The notes under the pieces: model-generated
The model's database searches: none
The model's input: the letters and a program-made list of their open reading frames with translations, nothing else
What the model was told of the DNA's origin: nothing
From: Rhodanobacteraceae bacterium
GTDB taxonomy: Bacteria; Pseudomonadota; Gammaproteobacteria; Xanthomonadales; Rhodanobacteraceae
Length of the DNA stretch: 64,000 nt
NCBI GenBank assembly: GCA_021325475.1
Contig: JAJPHA010000044.1
Span: 26,328-90,327 of the forward strand
Reading direction: 5' to 3'
Shown here: positions 9,178-22,246 of the stretch, piece after piece
Numbering within the stretch: position 1 is the first letter of the stretch
Layout of the letters: each line of letters opens with the position of its first letter
Made by a program: the position numbers and the translations under genes

Positions 9178-9810
9178 CTAGGGACAATCCACCGCCGCCC
9201 GCACCTGCAACCGCGCCTCGATATCGCGCCACTCGGTGTCGGGCTGCTCGACCGCGAAGTGTACCGTGTAGTGCGCGCCGCGTCGCGGCGTGAACGCCGT
9301 GCCCCAACTGTCGTCCATGCCGATCGGAAAACGCTCGACGCGGACGAACCCCGGCGCGACGGCGATTTCGGCCTCGGTGCCGCGCTGATAGAGAAAGACG
9401 TGATCGGCGTCGTCGAGCGCATGCAGGGCGATCCATTGCGTCAGCGACTCGCGACGCGCGAGCACCAGCCTGCCCTGCGCGTCGTGCACCGCAAGTTCGA
9501 TCCCTGCCGCCGGCCGCTCCGCGGCGACGACCTCGCCGTCCGTCGCCGTCGGCTGCGCCTTGCGCCTCAGCGCGAGACCGATGCGCGCCTCGATCGGCGG
9601 CAGGCCGGCGAGTACGCGCGTGACGCTGCCGGCCGTGGTCAAATCCACCGCGCCGAGATCGACCGTGTAGCCGTCCCGGCACAGCGCGCTCGGCGCCGGC
9701 TGCGGCGTGAACGTGCCGTCGCCGCGATAGCCGGTGTACTGCGCAAGCCGCATCGTACAGCCGGCCAAAGCGGCGATCGCCAGCGCGAACGCAACCGGGC
9801 GTGTCTTCAT
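9178..9810 (-). CDS. putative lipoprotein of unknown function
   Basis: Lipobox LAGC after MKTRPVAFALAIAA; ATG overlaps upstream stop (ATGA). Confidence 0.65.
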   Translation of the reverse strand: MKTRPVAFALAIAALAGCTMRLAQYTGYRGDGTFTPQPAPSALCRDGYTVDLGAVDLTTAGSVTRVLAGLPPIEARIGLALRRKAQPTATDGEVVAAERPAAGIELAVHDAQGRLVLARRESLTQWIALHALDDADHVFLYQRGTEAEIAVAPGFVRVERFPIGMDDSWGTAFTPRRGAHYTVHFAVEQPDTEWRDIEARLQVRAAVDCP

Positions 9811-11138
9811 CCGCCGAAACCGTCCGCGAAGATCCAATCCGGCAAGGTCTGATCGGCGCCGATGTCGGACCGGTTCGTGCCGGGCGGACGCGATTGCGCG
9901 TCGAAGTCGTCGCTGGCATCGGCGAGCGCCGTGGCGTGGCCGATCGCGGCGCCGGCCAGCGCGGTCAGATGCAGGTCGCCGGCAGCGGGATCGACGAACC
10001 AGCCGGGCGGCGCGGCAGTGAGATTGTTGCTGAGTGTGGGCGCGGCGCCATCGCGCGGCTGGATCGCGGCGTCGAGCAGATTGTTGATCACCTGCACCCC
10101 GGTGGCGCCGCTGTAACGCACCTCGATCGCGTTCGGATACCGGCCCGCAGTGAGCGCGGTGTTGTTGAGCAACTCGGCGTTCGGCGAGGTGGTGTAGATC
10201 GGCACGTCCACGGCGTAGTTCGCGTTCGCATCCCAGTGCACGAAGTTGTTGCGCACGATGCCGCGCAGGTGATCCGTCGACCCGGTGAGCCCGAGCGCGA
10301 TGCCGCGCGAGGAATCAATGATGGTGTTGCGTTCGACGAGCGAGTCGCTTGAACCCTGCCACAGCAGGATCGCCGGCCCGGCGAGCGTGAGATCCTGGCA
10401 GCGGATGCCGTGAATGAGGTTGTCGCGCACGATCCAGCGCGCCACGGTGACACCGTCCACCGCGTTGGTGTAGCAGGTGTTGCCGACCGCCGGATGATCG
10501 ACCGCGCCCGCGGTGAAGAACAGTTCGGAGTATTCGACGCTGACGTCGTCCGCGGCCGGCACGCCCTTCACCAGTTGTTCGCCGGCATCGTACAGGCGCA
10601 GATGATACAGATGCACCTGATGCGCGCCCTGGTCGCCCTGCACGGCGACGTCGTGATAGTACACATCGTGCACCGAAAGATCGGCGATGACGACGTCGCT
10701 GGCGGTGAAGATCTGGAAGCCGAACGGCACCAGCGGATCGGTCATGCCGGCGCCGACGAGAACCACATCGGCCGGATTGCCGGTCGCGCCGCGGATCTGG
10801 ATGTGACGGATCGGCGAGGCACCGTAGCGCCCCACGGTGAGACGGCCGTCCACGCCATTCGGAAAGTTCACGCTGGCGAGATCGTACGTGCCCGGCGCGA
10901 TCACGATCGCCTGATTGCTGGCGAGATTCCAGCACGCATCCGCGAGTTGCTGCGCGGTCGAGACCGGGACGACCGTGTAACTGGCGTCCGGCGGCGGCAG
11001 CGCCGGCGCATCTCGCGGCAGACGCGCACACGCGGGACGCACCGCAGCCAGGATCGCCAGCAAGACGCCGCCGCAGGCCGCGGCGATGCGCGATCCGCAC
11101 GTGGTGGGTACTGCGACCGGGAAACCGCCCGGGTTCAT
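9807..11138 (-). CDS. secreted right-handed parallel beta-helix repeat protein with C-terminal WIFADGFGG tag
   Basis: Signal peptide; GTYDLASVNFPNG, repeated IRGATGNPADVVLVG / NNLLDAAIQ-type rungs; C-terminus DWIFADGFGG*. Confidence 0.75.
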   Translation of the reverse strand: MNPGGFPVAVPTTCGSRIAAACGGVLLAILAAVRPACARLPRDAPALPPPDASYTVVPVSTAQQLADACWNLASNQAIVIAPGTYDLASVNFPNGVDGRLTVGRYGASPIRHIQIRGATGNPADVVLVGAGMTDPLVPFGFQIFTASDVVIADLSVHDVYYHDVAVQGDQGAHQVHLYHLRLYDAGEQLVKGVPAADDVSVEYSELFFTAGAVDHPAVGNTCYTNAVDGVTVARWIVRDNLIHGIRCQDLTLAGPAILLWQGSSDSLVERNTIIDSSRGIALGLTGSTDHLRGIVRNNFVHWDANANYAVDVPIYTTSPNAELLNNTALTAGRYPNAIEVRYSGATGVQVINNLLDAAIQPRDGAAPTLSNNLTAAPPGWFVDPAAGDLHLTALAGAAIGHATALADASDDFDAQSRPPGTNRSDIGADQTLPDWIFADGFGG

Positions 11139-11233
11139 GTTCGCCGTCCGTCTCGGTGCGCGCTCGCCCGCAAGCTTCGCCCGATTCCCCGCCGGGGTCC
11201 GTGACGCGGCGCACGCCGCGGCGCGATGCCTGC

Positions 11234-12553
11234 TCACGCATTCTCCGCCATGCGCTCGCGCCAGGTCTCGGCGGTCGCGCGCAGCGCCGTCGCATCGATC
11301 CCGAGCAATGCGCCATTTTCCACTTTGCGCACTCCCGCGATCCAGACATCGCTCACCTGGTGCCGACCGGTCGCGTAGACGAGCTGCGAGATCACGTGAT
11401 AGACCGGCTGCGTCTCCAGCGCATCGAGGCGCACGGCGACGAGATCGGCCTGTTTGCCGGGGACGATCGAGCCGATCCGGTCGGCGAGCCCGAGCGCGCG
11501 CGCGCCGTTGAGCGTGGCCGCGCGCAGGACGGCGGCGGCGTCGAAGGCGCTGGCATCGCCGGCCACGCCCTTGGCGAGCAGCGCGGCGGTGCGCATCTCG
11601 CCGAACATGTCGAGGTCGTTGTTGCTGGCGCAGCCGTCGGTGCCGAGCGCCAGGTTGACGCCGGCGCGGCGCAGCTTCTCCGCCGGGCAGAAGCCGCTGG
11701 CCAGTTTCAGGTTCGATTCCGGACAGTGCACCACCGAGGCGCCGGCCTCGGCGAGCTCGGCGATCTCGCCGTCGGTGAGCTGGGTCATGTGCACGGCGAT
11801 CAGATGATCGTTCACCAGACCGAGCGCGCGCAGCCGCGCCAGCGGCCGCACGCCGTGGCGCTGCTTCGATTCCTCCACCTCGTGCGCGGTCTCGTGGACG
11901 TGGATGTGCACCGGCACGTCGAGCTGATCGGCGAGCACGCGGATGCGGTGGAAACTCTCGTCGGCCACCGTGTACGGCGCGTGCGGCGCGAGCGCGGTGG
12001 CGATCAGCGACTCGCCCTTGAACTCGTCATGCACGGCGAGGTTCTTGGCGAAGTATTCGTCGCGGCTCTTCGCCCAGGCGCTCGGGAACTCGATGAACGG
12101 CAGTCCGACCACGGCGCGAAAGCCGTGCTGCAGGTAGGTGGCCGCCTGCACGTCCGGGAAGAAATAGTTCTCGTTGCAGCAGGTGGTGCCGCCGCGCAGC
12201 ATCTCGGCGATGGCCAGCTCGACGCCGTCGCGCACGAACTCGGCACCGACCGCGCGCGCCTCGGCCGGCCAGATGTGCTGCTCGAGCCAGGTCATCAGCG
12301 GCAGATCGTCCGCCAGGCCGCGCATCAACGTCATCGGGTTGTGCGTGTGGGCGTTGACCAGGCCCGGAATCAGCGCGTGCGCCGGCAGCGCGATGCGCGG
12401 TACATTCGTATACTTTTCCCGCGCGGCTTCGATCGGCAGCACCTCGGCGATCGTCGCGCCGGCCAGCGCCACCGCGTGATCCTCGAGCACCGCGCCGTGC
12501 GGCTCGACCGGGACCACCCAGCGGGCTTCGAGAAGGGTGTCGACGGGGGGCAT
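11234..12553 (-). CDS. mtaD: TRZ/ATZ-family amidohydrolase (methylthioadenosine/S-adenosylhomocysteine deaminase-like)
   Basis: ALIPGLVNAHTHNPMTLMRGLADDLPLMTWLEQHIWPAE...HVHETAHEVEES...ALGTDGCASNNDLDMFGEM. Confidence 0.85.
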   Translation of the reverse strand: MPPVDTLLEARWVVPVEPHGAVLEDHAVALAGATIAEVLPIEAAREKYTNVPRIALPAHALIPGLVNAHTHNPMTLMRGLADDLPLMTWLEQHIWPAEARAVGAEFVRDGVELAIAEMLRGGTTCCNENYFFPDVQAATYLQHGFRAVVGLPFIEFPSAWAKSRDEYFAKNLAVHDEFKGESLIATALAPHAPYTVADESFHRIRVLADQLDVPVHIHVHETAHEVEESKQRHGVRPLARLRALGLVNDHLIAVHMTQLTDGEIAELAEAGASVVHCPESNLKLASGFCPAEKLRRAGVNLALGTDGCASNNDLDMFGEMRTAALLAKGVAGDASAFDAAAVLRAATLNGARALGLADRIGSIVPGKQADLVAVRLDALETQPVYHVISQLVYATGRHQVSDVWIAGVRKVENGALLGIDATALRATAETWRERMAENA

Positions 12554-21182: not shown

Positions 21183-21212
21183 GGCGGCTCCCGCCGGACC
21201 GGAAGCCGCCTC
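21181..21212. terminator. Bidirectional terminator-like hairpin between convergent genes
   Basis: GAGGCGGCT-N14-AGCCGCCTC. Confidence 0.55.
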
Positions 21213-22246
21213 TACCAGTTGTAGCCGTCGGCGAAGATCACATCGTCGCCGAAACCGTTGCGGGTGCAATCGCTGACCGTGTACACGGTACCGAGCGGCA
21301 TCACGTCGAAATCGCCGAGGGCGACGCCGAACAGGGAATGCGAGTCGATGGCGATGTCGGGGTCGGTCCACTGGTGGACGGTGAACAGGCCGTCGTCCGC
21401 AGTGAGCGGCACGCTGCCGCCGTCCGACAGGAACATGCCGTACTTCTTGAGCGTGCGCAGGATCACCTGCGCGGCGGCGTTGTAGCCGCTGATGTCGAAA
21501 TTGGCGCGCAGCCGGAGTCGCGCACCGTAGGGAATCGCGTTCGCCGGGCCGCTGGGACCGCCGTAATGGCTGGCCGGGTGCACGAAGCTGTTCGCGCGCA
21601 TACGCGGGTTCGGCAGGACGAAACGGATCGCGTGGCCGAGGTCACCGTTGGTCACCTGCATCGCCGCGTACACCTCGTCCGGACTGAAGATCAACGGCGC
21701 CATCGGAAAACCTGCCGCATCCGCGCTGGTGCAGCCATCGCCGCGTCCGTCGGGTGGATACACCAGATTGAGATGCCACTTCACCAGACAGAGCGAATTC
21801 AGTCCGCTCGTGTCGATGGAGGTCGCAAAGGATTCGTACAGGGTGTCGCCGGCGACGATGAACAGATGGCAATCGTTGTTGGCGTAGTCGCAGGTATAGT
21901 CGGTCGATCCCTCGATCGCCCCGATCGATGGGACAGGCACGCCGTAACCGGTGTCGCAATCCGGGAGATAGTAACCCTGCTCCTGCACCAGCGGCTGCTG
22001 CGTGACGCCACCCCAGGAGGCATACACCCTGTGCATGGAGAAATCGATCTGGAAGGCGGTGGTGCCGGTGCCCCAGCCGATGCTCGCGGCGGTCATGGTC
22101 GCGGAGTTCGGGTCCGGCGTCAGCGCGGAGATGTCCTGATACCACACCGCGCCCGCCGGGAAACGCGGCACATCGCGCGGTGGCGGCGTCTGCGCCTGGA
22201 CCAGGGTCGCCAACACGTACAACGCCAGCGGAATCGAAGCGCGCAT
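21212..22246 (-). CDS. secreted protein of unknown function with C-terminal VIFADGYNW tag
   Basis: Signal peptide MRASIPLALYVLATLVQA; C-terminus CTRNGFGDDVIFADGYNW*. Confidence 0.7.
   Translation of the reverse strand: MRASIPLALYVLATLVQAQTPPPRDVPRFPAGAVWYQDISALTPDPNSATMTAASIGWGTGTTAFQIDFSMHRVYASWGGVTQQPLVQEQGYYLPDCDTGYGVPVPSIGAIEGSTDYTCDYANNDCHLFIVAGDTLYESFATSIDTSGLNSLCLVKWHLNLVYPPDGRGDGCTSADAAGFPMAPLIFSPDEVYAAMQVTNGDLGHAIRFVLPNPRMRANSFVHPASHYGGPSGPANAIPYGARLRLRANFDISGYNAAAQVILRTLKKYGMFLSDGGSVPLTADDGLFTVHQWTDPDIAIDSHSLFGVALGDFDVMPLGTVYTVSDCTRNGFGDDVIFADGYNW

Follow-up and report, generated by a model that had tools for sequence, protein, structure and literature searches.

A short tail at the C-terminus of many unrelated secreted proteins of Xanthomonadales is best interpreted as a transferable signal that lacks a transmembrane (TM) segment and directs Sec-exported proteins into one class of type II secretion system (T2SS), the class A (GspC-PDZ) system; the probability of this reading is put at roughly 0.6. 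Because the tail is carried by unrelated exoproteins and a class A T2SS is present with it almost constantly, it is probably an address label for the T2SS. The co-distribution of tag and class A T2SS was observed; secretion of the carriers by the T2SS through recognition of the tail is inferred, and the link to the T2SS itself is correlative and could be indirect. The first-pass annotation of the window, the 64,000-nucleotide stretch of Rhodanobacteraceae DNA analysed here, had proposed from two such tails an undescribed C-terminal sorting or export signal without a TM helix. This proposal is supported by the recurrence of the tag, its enrichment on Sec-signal proteins and the co-distributed T2SS.

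The choice of substrates by the T2SS has long been unresolved; it is believed to depend on three-dimensional recognition of an unclear nature (PMC7325957; PMC12369372). If our reading is correct, T2SS recognition becomes a peptide-binding problem, the secretomes of many genomes could be predicted from sequence alone, and the tail would provide a portable secretion tag.

The tag and its carriers

Two proteins encoded on the minus strand of the window bear the tag. The first (9807..11138) is a secreted right-handed beta-helix protein of 443 residues if translated from the ATG at 11138. Its open reading frame (ORF) was listed as 9807-11237; the GTG start at 11237 is probably wrong, and translation from the ATG yields a signal peptide (MNPGGFPVAV...). 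Its only family match, to the Pfam Beta_helix model, was below the cutoff (E = 6e-4), and its orthologs are 31-62% identical. The protein ends in ...LPDWIFADGFGG, with the tag DWIFADGFGG encoded at 9810..9839 of the minus strand. The second (21212..22246) is a secreted, Cys-containing protein of 344 residues that ends in ...GDDVIFADGYNW, the tag DVIFADGYNW being encoded at 21215..21244, also on the minus strand. It had no match at all among the Pfam and NCBIfam families. The family to which it belongs has many invariant Cys, Gly and Pro residues, is matched in 23 of 151 genomes of the order and is without a Pfam or NCBIfam model. As had been claimed in the first-pass annotation, both tails are located at the C-termini of proteins that open with a Sec-like signal peptide and are otherwise dissimilar, with no Pfam or NCBIfam family in common.

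The tag recurs in the source genome (2.9 Mb). The strict pattern WTHTTYNNNGAYGGNTWY, i.e. [IFL]-F-x-D-G-[FY] searched as a degenerate DNA pattern, gave 16 matches and its reversed control none; 15 of the 16 are in frame and no more than 13 codons before the end of an ORF. A looser pattern gave 58 matches versus 10 in the control, from which C-terminal tails were recognised in about 31 ORFs, mostly with a signal peptide; four obvious chance ends are left out of this count. The tails have the consensus D-x-[IL]-F-x-[DN]-G-F-[E/G/D], followed by 0-6 residues and rarely by more. These counts are not due to chance. In addition to the 31 tails of the source genome, roughly 10-110 matches were obtained per tagged relative, which is the recurrence on which the earlier proposal depended.

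In a scan of named genomes, ORFs ending in D-x-I-F-x-[DN]-G-F-E-stop were found in Marinicella, Dokdonella, Tahibacter, Rudaea, Pseudofulvimonas and many Lysobacterales MAGs. A simple test revealed a signal peptide in 86 of 123 such ORFs, and another 26 are cut off at the locus boundary. By a stricter, yet still crude, heuristic, 73 of 99 carriers have a signal peptide without a later TM segment, compared with 141 of 503 neighbours (28%; p = 2e-17), which is the enrichment on Sec-signal proteins anticipated for an export signal in the first-pass annotation. A TM-like stretch after residue 60 was present in only 2 of the 99 carriers. Since most positions of the 123 tails were fixed by the pattern that selected them, the informative features are the absence of any conserved position upstream of the last nine residues and the free position -8, which is mostly L, V or I. 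Among the carriers are peptidases (trypsin-like, subtilase, M12B and M64), endonuclease I, ExeM-type DNase, arylsulfotransferase, FG-GAP propellers and beta-helix proteins.

Tandem duplicated tails were observed at L133:2653-4968 and L203:5427-7721 (e.g. ...DLIFKNGFESDIIFKDGFE at the end of the protein), and several motif pairs in genome G489 are 27-33 bp apart (C3, C33, C44 and C55). Only rarely does a secreted protein carry the motif internally (minus strands of L046 and L194); an example is HPDAIFVGGFESGEIA, shortly after the signal peptide. An origin of the tail from a FESGDxxAW jelly-roll start was considered and rejected, with 7 internal versus 211 C-terminal copies in partly preselected loci.

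A choice-of-anchor Q domain is contained in 12 of 55 carriers at E <= 0.001. Five carriers of the source genome exceed the 25-bit cutoff of the corresponding model (NF041518), and in four of them the domain ends just before the tail; the beta-helix protein of the window does not match NF041518. Elsewhere, choice-of-anchor Q domains precede different C-terminal anchors, as can be gathered in part from the NCBIfam name, and the tail occupies the place that these anchors have in other genomes. That such domains normally precede anchoring signals is also an argument for the main rival explanation, namely that an unlinked enzyme or receptor uses the tail to retain the protein at the surface or to process it, either after or before T2SS export, and that the T2SS is merely needed for crossing the outer membrane. 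The occurrence of tandem duplicated tails is in keeping with it, as is the finding that V. cholerae uses GlyGly-CTERM jointly with a separate T2SS signal (PMC13393428), but the motif has no TM segment, Cys or basic tail, and no recurrent peptidase was found beside tagged genes or class A gspD, a result limited to the neighbourhoods. Retention or processing is an unlikely explanation that nevertheless has to be kept in mind. Clustering of 692 neighbouring ORFs disclosed no dedicated enzyme or recurrent peptidase adjoining tagged genes, the clusters consisting only of carriers, an ECF-like sigma factor, kinases and housekeeping genes. Genes for the ECF-like sigma factor and Ser/Thr kinase-TPR-like genes adjoin tagged genes in 7 and 9 loci, respectively (L199:1034-1603 and others).

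Co-distribution of the tag with a class A T2SS

A GspD (TIGR02517) search in 76 genomes yielded two score classes. Compared with the class A GspD of the source genome, the GspD proteins of tagged lineages score 484-1213 bits and those of class B at most 180; a Xanthomonas-like GspD copy (G056a) is an outlier with 402 bits. The GspD tree splits class A from class B at 100/100 support, and among solved structures, canonical T2SS secretins are the nearest to class A GspD. The gene upstream of class A gspD encodes GspC, with an HR domain and a C-terminal PDZ domain related to OutC and PulC. T2SSC and PDZ_2 were identified in 35 of 35 class A GspCs, and GspC is the only gene cluster of the gspD neighbourhoods that occurs in 35 of 35 class A loci and is absent from all class B loci; a recurrent peptidase beside class A gspD was not found in the neighbourhoods examined. 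The possibility that any T2SS serves as the partner was rejected because class B GspD occurs in untagged genomes too. The high TIGR02517 scores of three untagged genomes of family f2 (G047, G056 and G511) were assigned to class B or, for one G056 copy, to a distant outlier.

When genomes with at least five tags are counted as tagged, 59 of the 151 genomes of the order have both the tag and class A, 63 have neither, 23 have only class A and 6 have only the tag (Fisher p = 6e-16). This p value was not corrected for phylogeny and ignores common ancestry, so that contrasts within clades weigh more. A full-length class A GspC is encoded by all 10 tagged genomes of the window's genus (g1; E <= 6e-98) and is missing from five of its six untagged genomes; the sixth, G012, has a class A-like GspC in two frames and no tags. 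Outside this genus, class A GspC was found in all four tagged genera of family f1 and is absent from 17 untagged genera. In family f2, tag and class A are both limited to one genome, G482, and the only genome of the tagged family f9 without any GspD (G053) is untagged. The co-distributed partner that was to be expected of the export pathway envisaged in the first-pass annotation was thus found in the class A T2SS. Tags without class A occur in G443, G453 and G508, all incomplete or fragmented MAGs, and in G456 and G512, in each of which the single sampled [RS]F match is internal. G513 is rescued by its GspC; G480, with few tags, is a further mismatch.

Class A genomes without GF tails mostly use a variant tail, Fx[DN][RS]FE, which meets an out-of-sample prediction. 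Seventeen of the 23 genomes with only class A belong to family f10, where orthologs of the 21212 protein end in DRFE. The variant was matched 92 times versus 2 in the control in G433, 43 versus 1 in G044, 55 versus 1 in G490, and 7 versus 0-1 in two genomes of family f7; with few exceptions, untagged genomes lacking class A showed no more than background. Sampled [RS]F matches from class A genomes of families f7, f8 and f10 are mostly C-terminal (IFKDRFEM-stop, LFRDRFEP-stop, VFKNSFE-stop), and those sampled where class A is missing lie inside the protein or at least 24 residues before its end. Since the variant tail was searched mainly in class A genomes, a Fisher test that adds the variants is biased; the value to rely on is p = 6e-16.

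The tag occurs only in Xanthomonadales/Lysobacterales, for instance in Dokdonella, Tahibacter and Marinicella, and its distribution there is patchy, even inside one genus. The exact GFE-stop pattern was found in 27 of 60 relatives, with up to 42 per genome and no control matches, and did not rise above noise in other Gammaproteobacteria (matches in 9 of 369 genomes, including two from the window's own family, with 4 control matches). Outside the order, where canonical T2SSs are common, this survey of the class met with no such tag, which rules out a general T2SS signal. Tagged MAGs named Alcanivoracaceae, Bacillota or Planctomycetales (L124, L130, L131, L160, L189, L208, L210, L176 and L211) are possibly misnamed or mis-binned contigs.

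The distribution also bears on the idea that PDZ proteases such as DegP, DegQ or Prc recognise the tail as a mark for quality control or degradation in the periplasm. Proteases of this kind bind C-terminal hydrophobic motifs, but the weak PDZ-only matches to the GspC profile that are expected of DegP-type proteins occur in tagged and untagged genomes alike, and the tag instead tracks the class A T2SS, which renders a role in degradation very improbable.

How the tail might be read, and its relation to known systems

If the tail is a signal for the class A T2SS, its best description is D-x-[ILV]-F-x-[DN]-[G/S/R]-F-[E/D/G]. The N-terminal signal peptide would export the carriers to the periplasm, where they would fold in such a way that the short tail protrudes, as is predicted for one carrier. 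Periplasmic parts of the class A T2SS would then recognise the tail, and the carrier would be passed through the GspD secretin. Sec export and folding in the periplasm are established for T2SS substrates. The carriers fit what such substrates require, inasmuch as the heuristic assigned signal peptides to the 73 of 99 and tagged genomes encode a canonical GspD and a PDZ-bearing GspC.

PDZ domains bind C-terminal peptides. One V. cholerae substrate is not secreted without the PDZ domain of EpsC, which also captures a chimera containing the secretion domain of that substrate (PMC12369372). Together, these properties make the PDZ domain of GspC the likeliest reader of the tail, a conjecture for which there are no binding data. 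The 1-6 extra residues that often trail the motif fit poorly into a classical PDZ carboxylate pocket. The more specific proposal of a nine-residue, TM-free linear T2SS signal that dozens of unrelated Xanthomonadales exoproteins have acquired and that the PDZ domain of GspC reads is possible but remains doubtful at present. Whether the tail is cleaved is a matter of conjecture.

GlyGly-CTERM, which is read by rhombosortase in Vibrio, PEP-CTERM with exosortase and MYXO-CTERM with myxosortase resemble the tag in that they are short, transferable C-terminal homologies shared within one genome by many unrelated Sec-exported proteins and occupy the same position after choice-of-anchor domains. They are composed of a motif, a TM helix and a basic tail and have a dedicated intramembrane peptidase, whereas the tag consists of nine residues without TM helix or basic tail, and no peptidase was found beside tagged genes or class A gspD. 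Among the hits listed for the window proteins and the carriers, there was no match of an NCBIfam CTERM model at the tail, nor did any match listed involve a Pfam or NCBIfam model that covers the tail. The resemblance to PEP-CTERM and the T9SS suggested in the first-pass annotation therefore holds as a functional analogy and not as a structural likeness, given that no TM helix, no C-terminal domain (CTD) and no peptidase were found. The T9SS CTD is a C-terminal secretion signal on Sec-exported proteins as well, but it is folded, comprises about 80 residues and is read by the Por machinery of Bacteroidota; conservation of the tag is limited to nine residues, the tail is predicted to be disordered, and it belongs to Gammaproteobacteria. 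Type I secretion signals, which are uncleaved and C-terminal with acidic or hydrophobic residues, are similar, but T1SS substrates lack the Sec signal peptide that the carriers have. Known substrates of the Xcp, Out, Pul and Eps T2SSs are Sec-exported folded exoenzymes, and the canonical GspC (T2SSC plus PDZ) and GspD of those systems are found in tagged genomes; the known substrates differ in having no linear signal in common. Searches of open-access papers yielded no description of the motif, of Marinicella, Dokdonella or Wenzhouxiangella tags, or of C-terminal T2SS signals.

Conservation and predicted placement of the tail

Orthologs of both window proteins (roughly 30-66% identity) retain the tail, and the linker preceding it diverges. 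All 12 close orthologs of the 9807 protein end in a recognisable tail after a differing linker; for the 21212 protein, the tag or a close variant (such as LFANGFE, IFADGLE or IFLDRFEF) closes 16 of the 18 full-length ortholog loci. In a structure predicted by AlphaFold2 for an FG-GAP propeller carrier from only five sequences (mean pLDDT 80), residues 424-432, exactly DIIFSDGFE, lie outside the propeller with pLDDT <50. The tail is accordingly predicted to sit outside the carrier fold, a placement that rests on the propeller model alone since the model of a beta-helix carrier was too poor to use. That the motif merely forms the last strand of a single common fold, named in the first-pass annotation as a finding that would refute its proposal, is scarcely tenable, for although x-[DN]-G can make a tight turn and rare internal copies exist, the carriers have many folds, the tail is predicted outside the propeller, nothing upstream is conserved, and the distribution is set by the genome and not by the fold.

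G007 and G511 encode the two 21212-protein orthologs without a tail, and neither genome has a class A T2SS; G488 lacks it too, yet its ortholog ends in FKDGFE. The ortholog in G007 (L237), a genome of the same genus, is 67% identical, untagged and fused to another C-terminal domain.
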